This document shows, in pieces, positions 51,477-64,000 of a DNA stretch of 64,000 bases. Position numbers and translations under genes: made by a program. The DNA is taken from contig NZ_QNVJ01000064.1 of NCBI RefSeq assembly GCF_003350345.1, positions 248,001-312,000 on the forward strand, written 5' to 3'. Each line of letters starts with the position of its first letter. The stretch's first letter is position 1. The notes below the pieces were generated by a model, which worked only from the letters and a program-made list of their open reading frames with translations, was not told the origin of the DNA and ran no database searches. This stretch comes from Alkalilacustris brevis (GTDB lineage Bacteria; Pseudomonadota; Alphaproteobacteria; Rhodobacterales; Rhodobacteraceae).

Positions 51477-51593
51477 ACGGGGCATCCGAAGGCAAGGCCA
51501 TCACACGACGGCCACAGCGATTTGAGGGCTTGGCGCTCAGGCGTCACCCGGCTTAAGCTTGCGGCTTCATTCAGGCGACCCCATTTCCTGCCG

Positions 51594-54308
51594 ATGTTCA
51601 AAGCGCTTTTTCCAGTCGTACTTGCCCTTGCCCTGCCTGCCGCACCGCTGGCCGCGCAGATCGGCCCGGCCGCCGGTGGCAGCGCCAGCCCGCGCCTTGC
51701 CGCTGAACTGCAAGACGCCGCCAGCGCCTTCCTGCGCGCCTATCGCCTGCAAGATTGGGCCGCCGCTGTCGAACTGGGCAAGCCGCTGCTCGCCCGGATC
51801 GAGGCCAGTCACGGCCCCGCCCACCCCGAGCGCGCGCAGGTCGGGGCAAATCTGGCCTGGGCGCTGTGGCATTCGCGCGCGCATGAAGAGGCGCTGCAAC
51901 TCTTCGACACGCTCCACGCCGAGATCCCCCCCGACAACCCCGGCCATGACGCATTCCAGGCCGACTATGCCCTGTTCCTGATCCGCGCCGGGCAGAACAC
52001 CCGCGCCCTGCCCGTGGCGCTTGCCGTGGCCGGACGCGCCGAGCGCGAGCGCGGCCCCGACGCCCCCGAAACGCTGTCGCGCCAGCGCAGCCTCGCCGAC
52101 CTGCTGCGCCAGATGGGGCAGCTGGAAGAAGCGATCGAGATCTATCGCACCTTGCTTGCCCGGCAACAGGCCCGCCCCGGCCTGCCCGCCGCGCGCGAGG
52201 CTGCCACCATCCAGTTCATGCTGGCCGACAGCCTCGACAAGATCGGCGAGATGGACCGCGCCATTGCTGCCTATCACGCCAGCGCCCGCGCCCATGATGC
52301 CGCCTATGGCCCGGAACACCCCGAAACCCTTGCCGTGCGCTTTGCACTGGCCCGCGCGCTGGACTGGATGCGCGACAGCGCCGGGCTGGCCGCCGAACTG
52401 GAGCATACCATGCCGCGCATTGCGCGCGTTTTTGGCGCCGAAGGGGTGGAATATGCAGGCTGGGTGCAGCTGCGCGCCTGGCAACGGCTGGAGGCGGGCG
52501 ACACGACCGGCGCCCGCACCGACATGACCGAGGCCGCGCGCATGATCGCCGGCCAGCTGCCCGACAATCACCAGCTTGTCGGCGTGGCCTATCGCTGGTT
52601 GTGCATCCTGCTATGGGAACTGGGTGATATCGAAGGCGCCTGGGGGGCCTTCGAGGCGATGCTTGGCGCTCAGGCACCCGACCGCAAGATGCTGCTCGAC
52701 CTGCTGGAGGAACGCCACGACCGCGGCCTGATCGACGAACATGAGCTTGCCCGCCTTGCCCTGCTCCACCTGCAGGGCACCGTAAGCGGCTCGGTCCGCG
52801 GCGCCGTGCGCGAACAATACCTGCGCGGCATGTTGCGCGACCCCGAACTCGCCCGGCTCTACCGGCTGGGCACCGACACGGTCGAGGAACGCAACGCCGT
52901 GCAAAGCGAGTTGATCGAACTGGTGCGCCGCCCGCTGGAACAGCGCCCACCGGGGCAGGAAGCCGCCCTGTCCGCGCGCCACGCGGAATTGAACCGGATC
53001 GCCAAGGATGCCTTCGCGCAGGTCGATGCAGCCGAGCCTGCCTTTGCCGCCCTGCGCGGTGAAACTCTGGTGGAGCTTGACGCGCTGCAGGCGATGCTCG
53101 CAGCCGACGAGGCCTTTGTGCTGATCGATCACCAGCGCCATGACGAGGAATGGAGCATCGTCATCGCCGTCACCCGCGATCAGGCCGCCGCGCGCATCTT
53201 CTGGCACCCGGTGGACGGGATCGAAGGCGCCGTTGCCGAGATCCGCGACAACATGAACCTGACGCTGGGCACCCGCGGGGCGGTGGCGATCGGCGGCGGC
53301 GCGGACGATCCGCGCGTCTTTCCCTGGGAGGCGGCAGTCAGGCTGTTCGACCTGTCTTTCGGGCAGGTGTCCGACCTGACCTATGGCAAGGCGCACCTTT
53401 ACGTCGAGCAGCGCGGCCCGATGTCGAGCCTGCCGCCGGGGCTGTTGCTGCCCTACGTGCCCGAAGCTGACCTGAGCACCGCGACGGCACCCTGGCTGAT
53501 CCATTTTCACGCGCTCACGGTCCTGCCGTCGCTCACCAGCCTGCAAGCGCAAGTGCTGGGCCGCGAGGCCCCGCGCGCGCCCGAACCTTATGCCGGCTTT
53601 GCCAACCCGGTCTTTTCCGGGGTCGCGCCTGAACCGGCATTGATGACTGCTGCCACCTCGGAAAGCGCCTTGCGCGGACTGCTGGCCCCGCTACCCGAAA
53701 CCGCCATCGAGGCCCGCGCGGTGCAGGCCGCGCTGAGCGGCAGCGCCGGGCCGCAGGCCGCCGCCACCCAGCCGCCCGCCGGTGCGCTGTTGCTCGGCCC
53801 GGAGGCCAGCGAGGCCGCGCTCAAGGCAATGCCTCTCGATCGCTACCGGGTGCTGCATTTCGCCACGCACGGGCTGATTACCGGCGAAAGCGCGGGGGGA
53901 ATGCTGCTGAACGAGCCGGCACTCGCCCTCACCCCCGGCGGCGGCGAAGACGGGTTCCTGACCGCCTCGGAAATCGCCATGCTGCAACTCAACAGCGACT
54001 GGGTGGTGCTGTCGGCGTGCAACACGGCGCTCGGCGAGCGGCCGGGGGCCGAGCCGCTTTCGGGGCTGGCGCAAGCCTTCATCTATGCCGGCGCACGGGC
54101 GCTTCTGGTCAGCCATTGGCCGGTGGAAAGCCACTCGGCCGTGCAGCTTATGACCGATATCTTCCGCCTGCGCGCGCAGCACCCGCAAGAACGCGCCGCC
54201 GAAACCAAGGCGCACGCGATGTCCGCCATGATCACCGACCCGCCCGATCTGCGCTGGTCGCACCCGGCCTATTGGGCGCCCTTCATCCTGGTGGGCAACC
54301 CCGACTGA
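51594..54308 (+). CDS. Exported TPR-CHAT domain protein (putative caspase-like peptidase)
   Basis: A 904-residue protein with a signal peptide (MFKALFPVVLALALPAAPLA, cleavage near AAQ). Several TPR-like helical repeats (about 40-330, e.g. LADLLRQMGQLEEAIEIYRTLL) precede a CHAT domain (about 550-900). The CHAT catalytic pair is visible: His in RVLHFATHGLI and Cys in WVVLSACNTALGE, so it may be an active caspase-family cysteine peptidase. LVSHWPVESHSAVQLM and the terminal HPAYWAPFILVGNP are typical. Location is periplasmic or beyond. The start at 51594 is chosen for the signal peptide; the frame is open to 51522. Confidence 0.88.
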   Translation: MFKALFPVVLALALPAAPLAAQIGPAAGGSASPRLAAELQDAASAFLRAYRLQDWAAAVELGKPLLARIEASHGPAHPERAQVGANLAWALWHSRAHEEALQLFDTLHAEIPPDNPGHDAFQADYALFLIRAGQNTRALPVALAVAGRAERERGPDAPETLSRQRSLADLLRQMGQLEEAIEIYRTLLARQQARPGLPAAREAATIQFMLADSLDKIGEMDRAIAAYHASARAHDAAYGPEHPETLAVRFALARALDWMRDSAGLAAELEHTMPRIARVFGAEGVEYAGWVQLRAWQRLEAGDTTGARTDMTEAARMIAGQLPDNHQLVGVAYRWLCILLWELGDIEGAWGAFEAMLGAQAPDRKMLLDLLEERHDRGLIDEHELARLALLHLQGTVSGSVRGAVREQYLRGMLRDPELARLYRLGTDTVEERNAVQSELIELVRRPLEQRPPGQEAALSARHAELNRIAKDAFAQVDAAEPAFAALRGETLVELDALQAMLAADEAFVLIDHQRHDEEWSIVIAVTRDQAAARIFWHPVDGIEGAVAEIRDNMNLTLGTRGAVAIGGGADDPRVFPWEAAVRLFDLSFGQVSDLTYGKAHLYVEQRGPMSSLPPGLLLPYVPEADLSTATAPWLIHFHALTVLPSLTSLQAQVLGREAPRAPEPYAGFANPVFSGVAPEPALMTAATSESALRGLLAPLPETAIEARAVQAALSGSAGPQAAATQPPAGALLLGPEASEAALKAMPLDRYRVLHFATHGLITGESAGGMLLNEPALALTPGGGEDGFLTASEIAMLQLNSDWVVLSACNTALGERPGAEPLSGLAQAFIYAGARALLVSHWPVESHSAVQLMTDIFRLRAQHPQERAAETKAHAMSAMITDPPDLRWSHPAYWAPFILVGNPD

Positions 54309-54349: not shown

Positions 54350-55168
54350 TCAGCGCAGGCGCGGCGGGCGCTCCGGATCCGTCCCCGGCGCGGGCCGGGG
54401 GCCAGGCGGCTCGGGCGCGGCCTCGGGTTCGGGCAGGTCAAAACGCAGACCGACACGCGCCAGCCTGGGCAACAGGGCGTCCTCTGCATCCAGAAACGCC
54501 ACGTCCAGCGCCGCGGCCTCAAGCCCCGAGAACGCCAGCGCCTCGCCCACTGCGCGGGCCAGCGCGCGCTCGGCCTCGGGCACGGTGCCGACAAAGGCCA
54601 GCAGATGCCCCTGCCCGCCCCCCTTGTAGCGCACGCCGCACAGCCAGGCCGCCTGTGCCAGCCCCGCAGCCCGCGCCAGCCGCGCATCGAGCGCGGGCAA
54701 CAGCGCCTCGGGCAGCGCGCCGGGCGGGGTGATTTCTTCGGGACGTGCGGTCATCTCGCGCGGGGTCTCATTCAGCATCCCGGCCAGCCAGTCCATTGCC
54801 TCGGCGGGCAACAGAATGGACGAGGGTGCAACATCCAGGTTCAGACCCAGCCCTAGCGCCTGCCCCGCCAGCATCCGCGCCAGAACCCGGCCCGGCAGCG
54901 CGGCATAAGGCACCGCCGCCCCGGCAAAGCCCGCCAGCCGCGCCTCCGTGTCAAAGGCCAGTACCACCGGTCCGCTTTCCAGCGGAAACACCTGCGGGCG
55001 CAAGGTTTCGCCCTTCGCCTCTTCCTCGAGCATCAGGAAAAGCTCGCTGTCGGCAAGGCAGGCGTGAAAGGCCATGCGCGCGGCCACATCGCTGGGCGCG
55101 GCGGACATCGCCGCATGGGCGTGGTCAAGCGCGGTTTCGTCGGGCATCTGCTGCTGGGGTGTCGTCAT
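54350..55168 (-). CDS. SseB-family protein
   Basis: A 272-residue protein with the SseB N-terminal-like pattern: ALDHAHAAMSAAPSDVAARMAFHACLADSELFLML, LRPQVFPLESGPVVLAFDTEARLAGFAG and LLPAEAMDWLAGMLNETP. Despite the name this family is widespread and not tied to type III secretion. The C-terminus is Pro/Arg-rich (PRPAPGTDPERPPRLR). Its ATG at 55168 overlaps the stop of a truncated uracil-DNA glycosylase gene (ATGA), so it was the second gene of that operon. Confidence 0.8.
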   Translation of the reverse strand: MTTPQQQMPDETALDHAHAAMSAAPSDVAARMAFHACLADSELFLMLEEEAKGETLRPQVFPLESGPVVLAFDTEARLAGFAGAAVPYAALPGRVLARMLAGQALGLGLNLDVAPSSILLPAEAMDWLAGMLNETPREMTARPEEITPPGALPEALLPALDARLARAAGLAQAAWLCGVRYKGGGQGHLLAFVGTVPEAERALARAVGEALAFSGLEAAALDVAFLDAEDALLPRLARVGLRFDLPEPEAAPEPPGPRPAPGTDPERPPRLR

Positions 55169-55468
55169 TCGGACAGGGCCTTCTGCACGGCGCGGCGCAG
55201 CGCGGGCAACAGCTCGGCCGCGAACCACGGGTTACGCCTGAGCCAAGCCGTATTCCGCCAGGACGGATGCGGCAAGGGGAAGACGGCAGGCTCGGCCCCG
55301 CGCGCGGCAAGTTCGCGCCAGCGGGCCACCGTTTCAGTCACACCCGCGCGGCTGCCCAGGTGCCAGCGCTGCGCATATCCGCCCACCAGCAGCACCAGCC
55401 GCAGGTCGGGCAGCGACGGCGAACAGGGCGGGGGGCCTGCATGGCAACCGCAGCGCGGGCGGCAGCAC
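55165..55468 (-). pseudogene. Uracil-DNA glycosylase family gene, 5'-truncated remnant
   Basis: Only the C-terminal part remains: LRLVLLVGGYAQRWHLG through FPLPHPSWRNTAWLRRNPWFAAELLPALRRAV. This contains the conserved HPSxRN motif of the UDG superfamily. A full gene is about 190-210 codons; the N-terminal iron-sulfur/active-site region (with the GxAPG motif) is missing. Similarity upstream is marginal (PPPCSPSLPDLRL) and stops near 55468, at the stop of the HlyD-like gene. The fragment's stop overlaps the sseB start. It is probably non-functional. Confidence 0.75.
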
Positions 55469-56221
55469 TCAGCCGTCAGGCATGAACGCCCGGCAAGACG
55501 TGCCCGCGATGATCGCGCCGTCCTCGTTGTCGATCAGGGCATGAAGCCGGAAGGTCTGGCTCACCGGCTCTATCAGCACATCGACGAACGAGATTTCGGC
55601 CTCCACCTCATTCCCGTCCGCCAACGCGATCACAAGCGTCTCGCTGACGCTGAGCGGCTGATGAAACTGGCCGGGCACATCCAGTTCGGCCTGCAGCGTA
55701 TCGACCTGCACGAGCCGGATCAGCGGGCCATCGGGCGCAACCTCGCCCACATCGGCGAAAAGCTCGACCACCACGCCATCGTGGGGCGCGCGCAGAACAT
55801 AACGCCGCTGCTCGGCGATCAGCCCATCACGCTGAATCTGCGCAATCAACAGCTCCGATTCAATCTCGCTCAGTTCCGCGACGGACAGAACACCTTGCAT
55901 CTGATCGGCCCGCTCAAGCCGCTGGCGGGCCATTTCAAGCGTGACCTCGGCCTGCCGCATCTGCGCAACAAGGCTGCCCTGGCCCAACTCGAGCAGCACA
56001 TCGCCCTCTGAAACGCGGTCGCCAAGCCGGTGATGCACGGTCTCGATGATCTCGCGCGCACTGACCGACAGGCTTGAATCGCGTTTGGGCACCAGGCGGC
56101 AGTTGGCCGCCCCCAGATCGAGCACGCCACCGGGCGCGGACTGTGCAAAAGTCGGCGTCGTGAACGCAAGCGCAACGGCCAGCGTGCTACCTGAGACGGC
56201 TGAAAAGAAATACTTCATCAC
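55469..56221 (-). CDS. Periplasmic HlyD-like adaptor subunit
   Basis: A 250-residue protein with a signal peptide (MMKYFFSAVSGSTLAVALAF, cleavage near TFAQSA) rather than an HlyD membrane anchor. The barrel-sandwich halves are visible as HHRLGDRVSEGDVLLELGQ and RAPHDGVVVELFADVGEVAPDGPLIRLV, bridging a short helical hairpin (QMRQAEVTLEMARQRLERAD). It is the last gene of the export cluster, overlapping the SecA-like gene by 35 nt. I infer a periplasmic adaptor linking the two HlyD-bearing membrane proteins to an outer-membrane channel not encoded here. Confidence 0.85.
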   Translation of the reverse strand: MMKYFFSAVSGSTLAVALAFTTPTFAQSAPGGVLDLGAANCRLVPKRDSSLSVSAREIIETVHHRLGDRVSEGDVLLELGQGSLVAQMRQAEVTLEMARQRLERADQMQGVLSVAELSEIESELLIAQIQRDGLIAEQRRYVLRAPHDGVVVELFADVGEVAPDGPLIRLVQVDTLQAELDVPGQFHQPLSVSETLVIALADGNEVEAEISFVDVLIEPVSQTFRLHALIDNEDGAIIAGTSCRAFMPDG

Positions 56222-58151
56222 GCTCCATATCCGCTTTGAACAGTTGCTTTCTCACCCGCGCCTTCTGCCGCTCTCGGTTGCGCTGATACAGACGCAACCA
56301 TACCCGAAACACACGATCTGCCAAGCCCGGAGCCGTGCGCGCCAGCGCCACGAGGCCCTGGCGCACCAGCGCTGTCATCGCCTCGTCAAGGGGGCGCTCG
56401 TCCAGCGCATGGGCGAAATCGTGGCTGCCGGGGTCGCCCTGACGCCCGGCGCGGCCGAAAAGCTGCCGCTCAAGCCGCGCGGAAGGCAACACCTCGGCAA
56501 TAATGACATGCAGCCCGCCAGCCGCGCGCACCTCCGGGTTCAGCTTGATGTCGGTGCCGCGCCCGGCCATGTTCGTCACCACCGAGATCGCGTCGATCTG
56601 CCCGGCCTGCTTGACGATCTCGGCCTCCTGCTCAAGATGCTTGGCGTTCAGCACCTGATGCTCCAGCCCTTTACGGTGCAGGGCGGCACTGATCGCGTCC
56701 GAGGCCTCGACCGTGTTCACCCCGATCAGAACCGCGCGGCCCGCGGCCTGCATCGCTGCGGTGCGCTCGGCCACCCAGGCGTCACGCTGGGCCGAGGTGA
56801 CGAATATGCGATCATGCTGGCAGAAATTGCGCACTGGCCGATGTGTCGGCACATGAACCGATGCGGCCCGGTAGACCTTGCGCAATTCGCCCCGCACCTC
56901 GTGCAGGGTCCCGCTCATGCCGCAAATCTTGTGATACTTGCGAAAATAGCTCTGGAAGCTCAGCTTGGCGATTGTGCGCCGGTTGGGCGAAACCTCAAGC
57001 CCTTCGCGCACCTCCAGAACCTGATGCAGCCCCCAGGGCAGCGAGCGGTCGGGGGTGGGGCGCCCTGTCTGCGGGTCGATCAGCACGATCTTGTCTTCCT
57101 CGACGAAGTAATGCACATCGCGGCGGAACTTTTCCCGCGCGGTCTTGGCCTGCATCAGCACCTCTTCGGCCAGCGCGAAGGACTGCCATTCAGGCGCCGG
57201 ATCGGAGATGTCGTCGATCAGCGTTTTCAGGAAACGCGGGTTCAGATAATAGCTTTCGCTACGGCTGACATACTCCCAGACACTCGGGTCCATCCGGTCA
57301 ACCAGATCTATGGCCTGCTCGACGAAATGGCGCGACAGGGCAGACGACTCCTCGCGGGTGAGGATTAGCGGAATGTTCGCATCGTCGATCAGAACGCTGT
57401 CGGCCTCGTCGATGATGACAAAGCCCAGTTCCGTCACCATCCGGCGATCCTGCTGGAACGAGGATTTGACCCGCTCGGCGAAGGAGCCGGATTCCTGCAG
57501 CTTGATGCGATCCTTGAGATAGTCGAAGACCAGTTCCTTGTTGGTGCAATATGTCACGTCGCAACCATAGGCCGCGCGACGTTCCTTCGGGTTCATGCCG
57601 TTGACAACGGTGCCCACCTCAAGCCCCAGCATACCGAGCACCGGCGCAACCTCTTCGGCGTCACGCGCGGCGAGATAGTCGTTCACCGTCACCACATGAA
57701 TGGGCGTGCCGGCCAGCGCATGAAGCGCGGCGGGCAGTATGGCGGTGACAGTCTTGCCCTCGCCCGTTGCAAGCTCGACAAAATTTCCGTTGGCCAGGTG
57801 AAACCCGGCCAGCAACTGGTTGTCATGGTAGTGAAACCCGAAGACCCGCTTCAGAACCGCATCGACCAGCGCAAAGCATTCCGCCAGGTCGACATCTTCC
57901 AGCGCGGCCTTGCGCAGCCGCGCGGGAAGCGCACGCGCGCGCTGCCTCAGCTCCGCCTCAGGCAGGTCGGACAGGGCTGCCCGCTCACGGTGAATTCCGC
58001 GCAGCACCCGGCGCGCATGCAGGCGGCGGTTGCACTGCTCGCGCCAGCGCTGCCTGGCGATGTCGATCAAGCTGCGCTCGCCATGTGCGATTTCGGCGGC
58101 ATTCAGCGCCAGCCCGGTGCGCGGCGGGGGGATATCACTGACCCGGGCCAA
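56187..58151 (-). CDS. SecA paralogue lacking most C-terminal domains
   Basis: A 654-residue DEAD-type ATPase clearly related to SecA: Walker A ELATGEGKTV (residues 127-135), CDVTYCTNKELVFDYLKD, Walker B FVIIDEADSVLIDDANIPLI (244-), NBD2 KICGMSGTLHEV (409-), TNMAGRGTDI (526-535) and GRAGRQGDPG (566-575). It ends just after VRKQLFKADMERDEV, so the long helical scaffold, the two-helix finger and the zinc-binding tail of housekeeping SecA (about 850-900 residues) are mostly absent. The preprotein-crosslinking domain region is short and divergent. It overlaps genes on both sides and is surely part of the export operon. Confidence 0.9.
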   Translation of the reverse strand: MARVSDIPPPRTGLALNAAEIAHGERSLIDIARQRWREQCNRRLHARRVLRGIHRERAALSDLPEAELRQRARALPARLRKAALEDVDLAECFALVDAVLKRVFGFHYHDNQLLAGFHLANGNFVELATGEGKTVTAILPAALHALAGTPIHVVTVNDYLAARDAEEVAPVLGMLGLEVGTVVNGMNPKERRAAYGCDVTYCTNKELVFDYLKDRIKLQESGSFAERVKSSFQQDRRMVTELGFVIIDEADSVLIDDANIPLILTREESSALSRHFVEQAIDLVDRMDPSVWEYVSRSESYYLNPRFLKTLIDDISDPAPEWQSFALAEEVLMQAKTAREKFRRDVHYFVEEDKIVLIDPQTGRPTPDRSLPWGLHQVLEVREGLEVSPNRRTIAKLSFQSYFRKYHKICGMSGTLHEVRGELRKVYRAASVHVPTHRPVRNFCQHDRIFVTSAQRDAWVAERTAAMQAAGRAVLIGVNTVEASDAISAALHRKGLEHQVLNAKHLEQEAEIVKQAGQIDAISVVTNMAGRGTDIKLNPEVRAAGGLHVIIAEVLPSARLERQLFGRAGRQGDPGSHDFAHALDERPLDEAMTALVRQGLVALARTAPGLADRVFRVWLRLYQRNRERQKARVRKQLFKADMERDEVFLFSRLR

Positions 58152-60297
58152 AACGCGCCATCAGTGCGGTGTAGACCACCGGCCAAAGCCGGTCGAACAC
58201 GGTTTCGGGCGGATGGTGCAGCTTGATGCGCACCCGCGAGCCGATGGCGGCGGGCGGAAGCGGCCCCTCGATTTCAAGCGCGAATCCCGACTGCACCGTG
58301 TGGAAGCCGTCCATGTCCTCGCTGTCCTGGGTCATGACCGGCCCGCCGAAACGGTCGGCCAACTGCGGCGCATGCAGGCTGCGCGTGGCATTTTCCAGGA
58401 TATGACCCTGCGCAGCATCGGCCTGCGCCTGTGTGCCGTCAGGGAAAAGCAGCGCATAGCCGGACACACCGCGGCGCAACTGCCGCGCGCGCCGTTCCTG
58501 CACAAAGCCCACGATGCGGCGGTTTTCCGGCGCATCGACCACCCCCAGCATGGCCCGTAGGGGCACGAATGCCCCTTGGTGAAACACTGCAGCCTCGGCG
58601 GACCAGCGCCCCGAGGCCGCCGCGCGCACCTCGGCCTCGCCGATGCGGCGGTCAAGATCGGCGCGCACGGCCTCAAGCGCGTCGATCTCGCGCTGAACCG
58701 CGGCGGCGAAACCGGCATTGCCGCTGGACTGCGCGCCGCGCAGGCGGATGGTGGCGCCTTCGATCTTGGCGTCGAGCACCTCGCGTTCGGTCAGCAGGGC
58801 ATCGGGGCGCAGAGAGAAAAGCGGTGCCCCCTCTTCCACCGGCATTCCCATGCGGACATGGATTTCATCAATGAACCCGGCCACCGGCGCATAGACGGTG
58901 CCCGACTCGGCATGGATCACAACCCCATCCACCACGGTGCGGCTGGGCAGCGGTACCACCGCAAGAAGTACGCCGGCGCCAAGCGCGAAGGCCCCGGCAC
59001 GAAGGAAGAACTTGCGCGGCATGAATGTCCCCGACGTGCCTTTGAAGAATGCAGTAACCGATTTGATGCTGGGATGCACCAGCCCCGCATAGACAACCCA
59101 TATGGCCAGAAACTGCCCCATGAAGGGAACAATCTCGATCACCAGAAGCGCGATGGTCAGGGTGATGAACACCTTGTAGCACGCGGCTGCCACCCCGTAG
59201 GCGGCCAGCCACATGCGCGCACTCGGCCCCGCCGTTTCGCTGTCGGGCGCAAGCTGAGAGCCCAGCGCAAGACGCAGCCACCGCCCCAGAAGCTTGTTCG
59301 CGCGGGTGCCCAGATTGGGTGTCTGCGTCAGATCGGACAGGATGTAATAGGCATCGAAACGCAACAGCGGGTTGCCGTTGAAGAACAGTGTCGAAACCGT
59401 GCAGATGAACACCACGTTGAACAGCACGGCCCGCCACAGCCCCGGATCGCTATAGGTCCACAGGATCATGGCCATGGCGGCCAGCGCAAGCTCGGCCAGG
59501 ATACCCGCCGCGGTGATCAGCGCACGCGATTTGTGCGCGCGCAGGCGGTTGGCCTCGGAGGCGTTGACATAGGGCATCGGCACGAAAACCAGAAACATCA
59601 CGCCGGCTTCGAACACATCACCGCCAAAGCGGCGGATGGCCAGCGCGTGCGCCAGTTCGTGAATGAGCTTTACCACCGGATAGACCAGCGCGAGGATCAG
59701 AAGATTGTCGGGCGCAAGCGCCCGGTCGGCCAGGTTGCGGCTGAACGGCTGCCAGTTACCGATGGCGAAATAGACCCCCGTCGCAATCAGCGCGATGAAG
59801 GCCAGCAGCCCAAGACGCGAGAACAGCACATGCGCCAGCAACGTGGCTGGTGCGAGGCGCAAGAAGTTCTTGGGATTGATCAATGGGATCTTCTGACTGA
59901 CAGGCGATTTCAGGACGCGCAGCACCTTCTCCCAGGACTTCTTTTTCTGAAGACGCGCGATCTGGGCCGAGCGCGGCGGCGTATCGACCGAGATCAGCCC
60001 CGACTGATACATCTGCGAAAGCGTCTCGATCAGTTCGTTCTGGGTGGGCAGGTTCGGCGCGTTCGACCAGGCAAGCTCGTTCCAGACATCCTCGATCGAA
60101 TGCTGCCCGTCGAATTGGCTGAAGATGCGGAAATCGGCCTCGGACAGGCGATAGGTCTTGCCGCCGGTGCGGTCGTGAAAGACATACCAAAGCTCACCCA
60201 GGTAATCATGCACGAAAACTTCAAGCTGGGTGCGCAGCCTTGGCCTGAGGTCAGCAACCCGGTGCCAGTCCTGGCTGAGAAGCTGAAGATGCGCCAT
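58135..60297 (-). CDS. PqqD-like / M50-like / HlyD-like fusion membrane protein
   Basis: A 720-residue protein with three parts. Residues about 20-105 resemble a PqqD-like winged helix (RTGGKTYRLSEADFRIFSQFDG ...), a fold that binds leader peptides. Residues about 150-430 are a polytopic site-2-protease (M50)-like domain with HELAHALAIRRFGG (HExxH at 213-217) and the second motif NPLLRFDAYYILSD (Asp 315). From about 440 to the end is a HlyD-like barrel-sandwich region (AESGTVYAPVAGFIDEIHVRMGMPVEEGAPLFSL). It overlaps secA-like downstream by 17 nt. It may be the membrane component of the exporter and may process its substrate. Confidence 0.85.
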   Translation of the reverse strand: MAHLQLLSQDWHRVADLRPRLRTQLEVFVHDYLGELWYVFHDRTGGKTYRLSEADFRIFSQFDGQHSIEDVWNELAWSNAPNLPTQNELIETLSQMYQSGLISVDTPPRSAQIARLQKKKSWEKVLRVLKSPVSQKIPLINPKNFLRLAPATLLAHVLFSRLGLLAFIALIATGVYFAIGNWQPFSRNLADRALAPDNLLILALVYPVVKLIHELAHALAIRRFGGDVFEAGVMFLVFVPMPYVNASEANRLRAHKSRALITAAGILAELALAAMAMILWTYSDPGLWRAVLFNVVFICTVSTLFFNGNPLLRFDAYYILSDLTQTPNLGTRANKLLGRWLRLALGSQLAPDSETAGPSARMWLAAYGVAAACYKVFITLTIALLVIEIVPFMGQFLAIWVVYAGLVHPSIKSVTAFFKGTSGTFMPRKFFLRAGAFALGAGVLLAVVPLPSRTVVDGVVIHAESGTVYAPVAGFIDEIHVRMGMPVEEGAPLFSLRPDALLTEREVLDAKIEGATIRLRGAQSSGNAGFAAAVQREIDALEAVRADLDRRIGEAEVRAAASGRWSAEAAVFHQGAFVPLRAMLGVVDAPENRRIVGFVQERRARQLRRGVSGYALLFPDGTQAQADAAQGHILENATRSLHAPQLADRFGGPVMTQDSEDMDGFHTVQSGFALEIEGPLPPAAIGSRVRIKLHHPPETVFDRLWPVVYTALMARFGPGQ

Positions 60298-62099
60298 CAG
60301 GGGGTCCAGCGCCAGAAAAACTGGTAAAGCGTATCGAATACCGGTTTCACCCAGATACGCCAGAGCGGTTCGGGCGGCAATTCCAGCCGGGCCACGCCCT
60401 GCATCCCGTTTTCCAGCCGCAGGCCCTGCGGCTCGACCAGCGCGTAACCAACGAAACGCAACTCACCCTCTTCGGGCTGAGCCGCCGGATTGACGCGAAG
60501 CACCTGAACGGGCAGCGGGCGGTCGGGGGCAACATTCATCCGCAGCCGCCCCGAAAGCCCCTGCTCAAGCCGCGCGCCGTCGCGGTTCGAGACACTGAGG
60601 CGCGCCTCGGTCGCCTGGCGCGAGGCGATCATCAGCAGGTTCTCGCCATGCTCGATATTCGAGCCCACCCTCTGGCGCAGGTCGCCCTGCAGCACGATGC
60701 CGTCGATCTCGCTGCGCACAAGGGTGCGCGCGATGTCACGTTCGATCAGTTCCAGCCGCGCCTGCACTTCCGAAGCCTCGGCGCGGGCGACAGCGGCGGC
60801 GCCGAGGTTGCGTTCGCGTTGGGCGATGGCCTCTTCGGCGCGCAGTTTTTCAAGCTGCGCAATCAGTTCCAACCGCCGCAACTGCATGTCGGTATCGTCG
60901 ATCCGCGCCAGCACGTCACCGCGCTGCACCGCATCGCCCGGCAGCACCATGATTTCCAGCAGCGTGCCGTCCATTGGAGCGGCCACCGCGCGCAGACCCG
61001 GATCGTCGATCACCGTTTCGGCCCGCAAGGTCGCTGGTGTCTCCACCAGAACCAGAGCCGCAATCAGCGCCGCCAAGGCCAGGCCGATGACCTTTGCCCA
61101 GATATGCCGCGGCCCGAGCAGATAGCCGAAGAACTGGCCCAGATCGTCAACCGCCTTGCCGATCAGGGTGCGCGCGTTCTTCTGCTGAAGCTCCAGCACC
61201 GGTTGCGCCATGATCCAGAGCGGCTCCCACAGCTTGAGATCGGGCACGGCCTCAAGCCTGGTCCATTGCAGCACCATCGCGCCACGCATCTCCGCACGGG
61301 CATCGGATAGCGGAATCACCGCGACCGCCTCGTCGCCATGCTCGGCGGCAAGCGTGGCCAGCGGGGTCTGCACCGGATCACCCTTTTTCCAGAACAGTTC
61401 ACGGCGCTGGCGCAGGGCCTCGGTCGCGGCCTGTTCCGTCAGGTCATTGAGTTGCGTGCGCCGATCAAAGCTGACCACGCCCGAGATCGAGCGCAGCCGC
61501 ACCCGGCGCCCGCGCCCCCTGCTCACGAGCGAGATCCGCGCGGCATCGAAAACCTCGGCCACTTCGACGCAAAGGCTTTGCCGTGCTTCGGTAATGTCAT
61601 CGGAAGACAGCATCTCGGCCGAAATGGTGAAGGCGCGCGCCTGCACATTCAGCCGGTGCTGCGCCGCCTCAAGATCCTGCCGCGCGACGAGATGCACCAC
61701 CCAGCCGGCCGCAATCTGGATATGCTCCATCAGTAGCTCGACCTGCCGCGCGGGCATCGCCTTCAGCCCCAGCAGCACGAAGATCCGCCGATTGCTGACC
61801 CTCAGCGGCAGCACCAGCGCCTCGGCGATGGTGTCTTGCTCGACATCGAGCGGGGCGATCACGCCATTGCCGCTGTCTGCGGCCTCGGTCAGCGGCTTGT
61901 GATAGGCCCGGCGCAGGGCAAAGCTTTCAGGGGCAGCGGCGCGCACCTCGAACGAAGTCTCGGCCAGTTCGACGACAGCCGCCTCGACGATGCCGCGCAG
62001 GCTCCCCACCACATGGCGACACCATGCGTGGAGATCGGGAAACACCGTCTCGCCCGCGCCCGGATCAATGCCCAGAAAGCTCTCATTCGCCGCCACCAT
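60297..62099 (-). CDS. GAF-like sensory domain fused to a HlyD-like adaptor
   Basis: A 600-residue protein. The N-terminal half (about 20-300) is soluble and GAF-like, probably two domains (e.g. SLCVEVAEVFDAARISLVSRG ... EAVAVIPLSDARAEMRGAMVL). One membrane helix (about 332-353, IGLALAALIAALVLVE) follows, then HlyD-type lipoyl halves (AAPMDGTLLEIMVLPGDAVQRGDVLARID ... GIVLQGDLRQRVGSNIEHGENLLMI) around a long coiled coil (ELIAQLEKLRAEEAIAQRERN). It appears to be an inner-membrane adaptor with a cytoplasmic sensor. Its stop overlaps the M50-like gene start (TGATG). Confidence 0.87.
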   Translation of the reverse strand: MVAANESFLGIDPGAGETVFPDLHAWCRHVVGSLRGIVEAAVVELAETSFEVRAAAPESFALRRAYHKPLTEAADSGNGVIAPLDVEQDTIAEALVLPLRVSNRRIFVLLGLKAMPARQVELLMEHIQIAAGWVVHLVARQDLEAAQHRLNVQARAFTISAEMLSSDDITEARQSLCVEVAEVFDAARISLVSRGRGRRVRLRSISGVVSFDRRTQLNDLTEQAATEALRQRRELFWKKGDPVQTPLATLAAEHGDEAVAVIPLSDARAEMRGAMVLQWTRLEAVPDLKLWEPLWIMAQPVLELQQKNARTLIGKAVDDLGQFFGYLLGPRHIWAKVIGLALAALIAALVLVETPATLRAETVIDDPGLRAVAAPMDGTLLEIMVLPGDAVQRGDVLARIDDTDMQLRRLELIAQLEKLRAEEAIAQRERNLGAAAVARAEASEVQARLELIERDIARTLVRSEIDGIVLQGDLRQRVGSNIEHGENLLMIASRQATEARLSVSNRDGARLEQGLSGRLRMNVAPDRPLPVQVLRVNPAAQPEEGELRFVGYALVEPQGLRLENGMQGVARLELPPEPLWRIWVKPVFDTLYQFFWRWTP

Positions 62100-62130: not shown

Positions 62131-62457
62131 TCAGCCGGTTGTGATCGTGCCTTCACCCTGCGGCTGCACCGTCTGCCCCCCGGCTTCGATCTGGCCGTAG
62201 CGGGCCTCATGCTGGGCGATCGCGTTGACCAGCATCGCCGCCAGGCGCTTGGCCGTGGGCGGCGTCATGATGATGCGGTCGTTCAGATCCACCTCGAAAT
62301 CCTTGGTCTTGCCGTGCCAGGAACGACCGATGCCGATAAGCAGAGCGAACTCTTCCTGTGTTGCGGCCACGTTGGCCACGTTCGCATAGCTGGTGCGCAT
62401 GTTCTGGTCGCGAAAGACGACCGTCTTGCCACCCTGTTCTGCCTTCATATCCGTCAT
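62131..62457 (-). CDS. DUF3467 family protein
   Basis: A 108-residue cytoplasmic protein (VVFRDQNMRTSYANVANVAATQEEFALLIGIGRS ... DRIIMTPPTAKRLAAMLVNAIAQHEARYG) matching the DUF3467 family of unknown function. GGAGG precedes the ATG at 62457. It lies between the RTX-like gene (45 bp upstream) and the GAF-HlyD gene (31 bp downstream). By position it may be a chaperone or regulator for the exported substrate (inference). Confidence 0.88.
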   Translation of the reverse strand: MTDMKAEQGGKTVVFRDQNMRTSYANVANVAATQEEFALLIGIGRSWHGKTKDFEVDLNDRIIMTPPTAKRLAAMLVNAIAQHEARYGQIEAGGQTVQPQGEGTITTG

Positions 62458-62502
62458 CAGACCTCCAGTAGGTTTCCAAGCCATGCGCCGTTCGCGCAGC
62501 TG

Positions 62503-64000
62503 TTACTGTATCCGCCGCTCCGCATCGCCGGGCTGCCCGCACAACACGAAGCGCGACCCGTCCCACATGCGCAGCCTGCTTTCCAGGCTGTTCACGCGAA
62601 TCTCGCGCCGGCGGGTCATCGTGGCCACCGCGAAGATCCCAGCGCCCGCCTTGAGCGTATCATAAACCGCCAGCCCGTCATCGGCCAGTGGCCATGCGTC
62701 ATCGGCACCACCGTCTTCCGCAGCCGAAGCGCCGTTCATGGCTCCCGACCGCAGCGCGGCAAAACGGCCCAGCCCGTCGTCGCCGGAACCATTCAGATAC
62801 AGGGCGGCTTCTTCTTCGGCCTCGGCGTCTTCCTCGCCTTCCTCGCCGTCTTCGGAGTCTTCCTCCGCCTCCTCGCCGTTGGCGTCTTCGCCGGCGCCTT
62901 CGGCGGGTGTCTCTTGCTGGCCATCCTCGGCGGGTTGCTCCGCATCTTCTTCGGGCAGTGGAAGAAGGTCGTCGTCTTCCTCTTCATCCTCGCCGGCTGT
63001 CAGGTCGGCCATCATGCTGCTGAAGGCCGCCAGAAGATCGTCAAAGGTGTAGCTGGCCTGCGGCCCGGTCGCGGAACTGGGAACGCCGAAGACTTCGGAT
63101 ACGAAAGAAAGCGGCTCGGTCGTGCCTGTCAGGTCATCGAGCGGATCGTCACCTTCATAGGCGTTGCGCGTTTCGCGGTCGAAGCGGTTGTCGGTGGCGC
63201 CGAAATTCTCGACCTTGTCGATCGCCAGCCCGGCCGCCCAGCCCTGATACCCTTCTGCCGGGTCCAGCGCGTCAATCGCCTTGTCGGACTGGAACAGCAT
63301 CCGGCCATAGGTTTCCAGCACGATGTCGCGGGCAATCGCCACCCGGAAAGTGTTGATCATCGTACCGCCCATGACCAGCGCGCCGTCGAAATCCTCGGTG
63401 GCCGAAGCCCCCTCGCCCACGAAATGGCCGGTCAGGATCACATCGCCACCGCCCTGAAGGAAACTGCCCGCGCTGGAGACGATTTCATGCAGCAGCCCGT
63501 TGTTGAAAGTGATGTCGGCATAGTCGCCCAGCAAGACATCGCGCCCGGCATCGCCATAGATCAGATCACTGCCGCCGCCGCCCAGGATGATGTCGTTCCC
63601 GGCACCGCCGCGCAGATCGTCATTGCCACCGAAGCCCAGTTCGCTGGTCGCCATGAACACCGGCGCCATGGCGTCAATCGCCGGGTCGAACTCCGCAGTG
63701 CCGAGATCGCCAAACAGGATATGCGTGCCGCTTTCCGGGCTGAAGCTGTGGTCGCGGTTGTCGCGCGAAAGGTAATCACCCTCGAGCCTGCGGCCAGTCC
63801 AGATCGTGTCATCGCCGCCGCCGCCAAAGACAACTCCCTGCCCCGCACCGGCAATCAGCATGTCATTGCCCGCCAGATCGGTATGGATGTCTTCCATATA
63901 GGCCAGGTTGCCGCTCGACGCCCATTCGATGCGCCCGTGATCGAGCAGCACGAAGACATCGCCATCGCCCAGCAGCACGGTGTCGTCGCCACGGCCGAGG
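62503..64000 (-). CDS. Large RTX-like exported protein, C-terminal part
   Basis: Only the last 499 codons are in the window; the frame is open at the right edge. RTX-type nonapeptide segments occur near the top (LGRGDDTVLLGDGD, GGGGDDTIWTG, GGNDDLRGGAGNDIILGGGGSDLIYGDAGRDVLLGD, the last given as consecutive motifs), interspersed with other sequence. A highly acidic Glu/Asp-rich linker (about 70 residues) follows, then a basic C-terminus (TMTRRREIRVNSLESRLRMWDGSRF). The last part may be an export signal. It is the likely substrate of the downstream export genes. Confidence 0.88.
   Translation of the reverse strand, partial: LGRGDDTVLLGDGDVFVLLDHGRIEWASSGNLAYMEDIHTDLAGNDMLIAGAGQGVVFGGGGDDTIWTGRRLEGDYLSRDNRDHSFSPESGTHILFGDLGTAEFDPAIDAMAPVFMATSELGFGGNDDLRGGAGNDIILGGGGSDLIYGDAGRDVLLGDYADITFNNGLLHEIVSSAGSFLQGGGDVILTGHFVGEGASATEDFDGALVMGGTMINTFRVAIARDIVLETYGRMLFQSDKAIDALDPAEGYQGWAAGLAIDKVENFGATDNRFDRETRNAYEGDDPLDDLTGTTEPLSFVSEVFGVPSSATGPQASYTFDDLLAAFSSMMADLTAGEDEEEDDDLLPLPEEDAEQPAEDGQQETPAEGAGEDANGEEAEEDSEDGEEGEEDAEAEEEAALYLNGSGDDGLGRFAALRSGAMNGASAAEDGGADDAWPLADDGLAVYDTLKAGAGIFAVATMTRRREIRVNSLESRLRMWDGSRFVLCGQPGDAERRIQ

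Follow-up and report, generated by a model that had tools for sequence, protein, structure and literature searches.

Little is understood of how bacteria bring polypeptides of 5,000-15,000 residues out of the cell as single chains. SecA2/SecY2 is an accessory system that exports large glycoproteins. The C-terminal domain of SecA regulates its ATPase activity and carries the regions for interaction with SecY and SecB, and an artificial fragment of the E. coli protein, SecA N68 (SecA 1-609), displays high ATPase activity without this domain (PMC5456053). LEPR-XLL giants have been named (PMC10868602) and a planctomycete surface motif has been reported (PMC8567305), in the available text of both papers without an exporter. 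Neither did we find, in what is available of the open-access literature, an exporter assigned to the PF07595 or LEPR-8K motifs. A description of the SecA/M50/HlyD gene set explored here was not found in open-access literature either; its novelty, judged on such papers, is provisional.

The gene set was analysed in a window of 64,000 nucleotides from Alkalilacustris brevis, by which we mean the whole stretch of DNA studied. Related loci were collected by scanning 84,980 species genomes with the M50 protein that neighbours the SecA-like gene as query, which yielded 351 relatives, and 80 loci were kept. The operon comprises the following features.

55469..56221, minus strand: small RND/HlyD-type periplasmic adaptor, 250 aa, overlapping the SecA-like gene by 35 nt
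56187..58151, minus strand: short SecA-like ATPase, 654 aa, consisting of NBD1, PPXD, NBD2 and the first HSD helix
58135..60297, minus strand: PqqD-like domain, M50 metalloprotease membrane domain and HlyD/MexA-type periplasmic adaptor, 720 aa, the proposed platform
60297..62099, minus strand: GAF-like N-terminal domain, single TM and HlyD periplasmic adaptor, 600 aa, in 74 of 80 loci
62131..62484, minus strand: DUF3467 protein, 117 aa (E 1e-17), in 30 of 60 tested loci
62503..64000, minus strand: 3' end of the giant gene, whose remainder runs past the window to contig C8:352271; the proposed substrate

The gene order downstream of the giant is hence DUF3467, GAF-HlyD, PqqD-M50-HlyD, short SecA and small HlyD adaptor, the last being present in 44 of the 58 loci with enough sequence. 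A TolC-type gene lies upstream of the giant gene at the window locus, and Methylosinus plasmid pMSC49a carries the whole gene set in one run, TolC included; with a weak profile TolC was detected inside 1 of 53 loci, and most loci thus do not contain it. The operon genes, in the window as in pMSC49a, include no ABC exporter ATPase, and none of the accessory proteins is evidently a large channel for polypeptides. Just downstream of the operon an SseB-domain protein is encoded (54350-55228, minus strand, E 5e-7), and 51522-54308 on the plus strand, opposite to the adjoining operon, encodes a TPR-CHAT protein of 928 aa with a caspase-like protease domain (E 2e-43). In genome G005 (L039 19554 to L040 213) a protein of 219 aa is encoded between DUF3467 and GAF-HlyD, its start resembling a signal peptide and its C-terminus (GLGALMLVRRRRRAA) a PEP-CTERM/sorting signal; several other loci have unlabelled genes of like size at this place.

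The short SecA gene starts with TTG and overlaps the stop of the M50 gene by 17 nt. As a first-pass annotation of the same DNA had noted, all SecA ATPase motifs are intact (GEGKT, DEAD, TNMAGRGTDI and GRAGRQGDPG), which is what characterizes the SecA superfamily, and Pfam profiles identify SecA_DEAD (E=1e-85) and the SecA P-loop (1e-39). The preprotein cross-linking domain (PPXD, PF01043) is inserted in NBD1, covered by both fold and profile (E 1e-11), and the preprotein clamp is kept. An AlphaFold model of the protein alone, as had been suggested, was built with 47 homologues (mean pLDDT 87, pTM 0.86) and has the SecA fold with one HSD helix. Its nearest solved folds are SecA structures, the best of them in the SecY-bound state (6itc, TMq 0.81).

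The host genome encodes one other SecA, a full-length housekeeping protein of 896 aa from its canonical start, and the C-terminus of the short protein aligns opposite its residue 659. Housekeeping and short SecA share NBD1, PPXD, NBD2 and the first HSD helix at 34-39% identity, as well as a common fold (TMq up to 0.81). The first-pass annotation had described a protein without scaffold, two-helix finger or zinc tail that stops at the start of the long scaffold helix. Finger and zinc C-tail are indeed absent, as is the helical wing (HWD), and the complete HSD of housekeeping SecA is therefore not present either; the first HSD helix, however, is retained as a 44-residue C-terminal helix (residues 608-651 of the model), hence the stop was placed too early. 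What is missing is nevertheless, as claimed, the C-terminal third that contacts SecYEG and SecB. It is not encoded nearby: tblastn with host SecA residues 660-896 gave a best E of only 0.8 near the locus, which rules out a split SecA and, together with the model, an intact finger elsewhere. Fixed differences are found in motif II (DEAD in short, DEVD in housekeeping SecA) and at R562, which is Asn in all full-length SecAs. The short protein scores 461.6 bits against the NCBIfam secA equivalog (cut-off 800) and 335-448 bits against the SecA2 models (three NCBIfam groups and the B. anthracis type; cut-offs 725-1100), and the curated cut-offs rule out SecA2 membership.

A short SecA homologue adjoins the M50 gene in 79 of the 80 loci, including L063 and L069 where it was found by tblastn; the contig of the 80th ends inside the M50 gene. 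The pair occurs in Pseudomonadota and in deltaproteobacterial lineages (Myxococcota- and Desulfobacterota-type). Intact copies measure about 640-730 aa and all lack two-helix finger, HWD and C-tail. The C-terminal end falls at one alignment position, within one residue, in 70 of 72 short SecAs, and catalytic residues are invariant across 47 sequences, which together with the motifs supports the earlier view of an intact and probably active motor. A phylogeny against full-length SecAs, likewise suggested beforehand, separates the 37 short from the 32 full-length sequences by a single branch with 100% support. All 20 genomes checked have a full-length-type SecA match besides the short protein or proteins, in 19 above the family cut-off. 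In a mirror-tree comparison the distances of short SecA correlate with those of the M50 protein at r=0.90 and with those of host SecA at r=0.41; this co-divergence and the linkage to LEPR-XLL giants indicate that the operon moves as a unit. Genomes G327, G340, G341 and G344 have two short SecAs each, and G344 encodes two LEPR-XLL giants, each paired on its contig with a separate short SecA. In G013 (L018; G013:C3:961587-963421) the short SecA is frameshifted near GGLHV and the giant gene is likewise split into several frames. Public records name family members SecA, DEAD/DEAH helicase or 'prepilin peptidase' (for instance NZ_AP022333.1:174172-176088 and NZ_CP088148.1:53990-55951, labelled 'prepilin peptidase' and 'DEAD/DEAH box helicase'), and with such conflicting names the family appears uncurated.

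The RTX frame upstream, in which the first-pass annotation had missed the proposed substrate, forms the 3' terminus of a gene that is 41.8 kb long and encodes 13,922 aa. The N-terminus of this giant (start MNKFVKSPISRRRMAVEPLEDRILLSVDLIPYAP) combines a basic region with a LEPR-XLL motif (EPLEDRILLSVDLIP) that matches NF012209 (LEPR-8K) and PF07595 (planctomycete cell-surface motif); DUF4347 follows the motif and RTX repeats are found at the end. Permissive thresholds make the 24-position LEPR-8K model noisy; only matches above cut-off were therefore used, and these were judged jointly with frame size and neighbourhood. Among 61 related genomes such matches occur in 4/4 with short SecA vs 1/57 without (hypergeometric P about 1e-5). 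Seventeen of the 20 short-SecA genomes have matches, most of them in frames of between 5,600 and 15,050 aa. In 16 of the 17 a LEPR-XLL giant adjoins short SecA within one contig, as a rule immediately upstream and in the same orientation. A basic region and the consensus [F/L/I/V]ExLEPRxLLSADL are common to the N-termini; seven were measured, and their hydrophobic core is weaker than that of a classical signal peptide. In G034 a LEPR-XLL match above cut-off lies in a 746-aa frame, and no SecA match of any kind was detected (E 0.001).

The M50 protein, whose homologues are annotated as PqqD family or M50, has HELAH (HExxH) at 213-217 and D315, both invariant among homologues. A PqqD-like fold is predicted for its N-terminus from secondary structure and the PqqD names of homologues. 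Its C-terminus, overlooked at first, is a MexA/AcrA-like, TolC-type periplasmic adaptor with an alpha-hairpin. The first-pass annotation had nominated the protein as membrane partner of the motor: adjacency and co-divergence support the tie between the two, whose physical docking is proposed.

Short SecA is always accompanied by one constant group of three or four envelope genes and by the gene of a giant surface protein, and is thus probably a dedicated export engine. The best reading of the operon is an ABC-less, type-I-like exporter with the giant as its presumed substrate. We think it somewhat likelier than an even chance that short SecA powers, as its dedicated ATPase, a machine exporting LEPR-XLL giants and is docked on the PqqD-M50-HlyD protein. 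The PqqD-like cytosolic (peptide-binding) domain would recognise the basic N-terminus of about 25-40 residues and LEPRxLLSADL at the inner membrane. Short SecA would dock on the PqqD-M50-HlyD protein rather than via a two-helix finger in SecY, and the unfolded giant would be gripped in its clamp (NBD1/PPXD/NBD2) and fed by ATP-driven steps into the conduit, its leader possibly being trimmed by the M50 active site. The three HlyD-type adaptors (M50-HlyD, GAF-HlyD and small HlyD) would build a tunnel across the periplasm that leads to an outer-membrane channel of the TolC type, a layout as in type I secretion with a SecA motor replacing the ABC ATPase, and outside Ca2+ would then fold the RTX end.

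Support for a dedicated motor comes from the near-universal M50 adjacency, the uniform ends, the invariant catalytic residues, the separate clade and the closer co-divergence with M50 than with host SecA. To this may be added the co-occurrence and contiguity with LEPR-XLL giants, the hairpin of the M50 adaptor, the TolC genes at the window and Methylosinus loci in operons free of an ABC ATPase, the lack of a SecY paralogue, and LEPR N-termini that, where checked, have no strong hydrophobic core. Against it stand the best fit of the model to SecY-bound SecA, by which SecY could still be the channel, accessory proteins of which none is obviously a large polypeptide channel, the usual absence of TolC from the locus, and a more distant set of loci, here called type B. 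These have M50-HlyD, GAF-HlyD and small HlyD genes, in some cases with TolC-like genes, and next to them giants starting with LEPRxMFDAA or similar (ALEPRMMFDAA or LEARIAFDAA in L203, L205, L206 and L208); in type B genomes only full-length SecA was found and no short SecA. Such conduits can therefore work without the short motor, which is confined to the LEPR-XLL branch and dispensable for some conduits of this type. The more far-reaching form of the proposal, a one-step secretion system of a categorically new kind in which a SecA-type motor on PqqD-M50-HlyD, not SecYEG, moves chains of up to about 15,000 residues via HlyD and TolC to the surface under an N-terminal LEPR-XLL signal, we consider somewhat less likely than not. 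That the motor works without SecY is, in particular, our inference.

Type B loci are the strongest argument for the SecYEG-dependent alternative and chiefly keep it alive, since they imply that housekeeping Sec may serve such conduits. Short SecA would then be cargo-specific in a SecA2-like manner, delivering giants to housekeeping SecYEG, perhaps with full-length SecA, while HlyD/TolC would act from periplasm to surface only. Retention of PPXD and first HSD helix, and a model nearest to SecY-engaged SecA, are consistent with this two-step route. A second SecY was not found, 20 of 21 genomes including this one having a single SecY, which rules out a SecY2 partner; only the housekeeping SecY could then serve as partner. 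We nonetheless regard this route as rather unlikely, as every intact homologue is devoid of the SecY-engaging parts, short SecA co-diverges with the M50 protein and much less with host SecA, and the LEPR-XLL N-termini have no clear signal-peptide core.

It is improbable that short SecA is instead an unfoldase or chaperone that holds the giant unfolded or times its cytosolic delivery, another energy source moving the chain. The type B conduits and the N68 fragment are in agreement with such a role; the operon encodes no alternative energy source, however, and short SecA is strictly adjacent to a membrane protein. N68 is somewhat shorter than short SecA, and by analogy its activity makes ATP hydrolysis by a motor of this length plausible under the dedicated-motor reading as well. 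Finally, a truncated, decaying copy without function, about which the first-pass annotation had already been wary, is practically out of the question: although the C-terminal third is missing and one homologue is frameshifted, the shared end point, catalytic residues conserved across more than 40 diverse sequences, the own clade and the conserved operon rule it out, and the protein is a naturally short SecA relative.

The question of giant export becomes testable with a SecA family that lacks the SecY-engaging finger and is strictly paired with LEPR-XLL giants and a protease-adaptor fusion. For the LEPR-XLL/planctomycete-type surface motif the operon provides a candidate exporter, and short SecA constitutes a natural experiment on which SecA parts motor function needs.

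Compared with known systems, PF07595 and NF012209 both match the N-terminus of the giant and both describe substrate motifs, not exporters. The PqqD-M50 part matches the daptide HExxH intramembrane metalloprotease (NF041824, E 7e-39) far under its cut-off (134 vs 300 bits); unlike that protease, the M50 domain carries a fused HlyD adaptor and has a SecA as its companion. Unlike the housekeeping gene, that of short SecA, which has lost HWD, two-helix finger and C-tail, lies within an adaptor operon adjoining a giant-protein gene. SecA2 is likewise a second SecA that serves a substrate subset, but SecA2 proteins retain HSD, HWD and finger (models of about 760-790 aa), and the present system differs further in having no SecY2, in being Gram-negative and in its HlyD/TolC partners. 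With type I secretion (HlyB-HlyD-TolC, LapBCE-type) it has HlyD adaptors, TolC and an RTX giant substrate in common, whereas the operon contains a SecA-type motor and an M50 protease instead of an ABC ATPase and the signal motif of the giant appears to be N-terminal.
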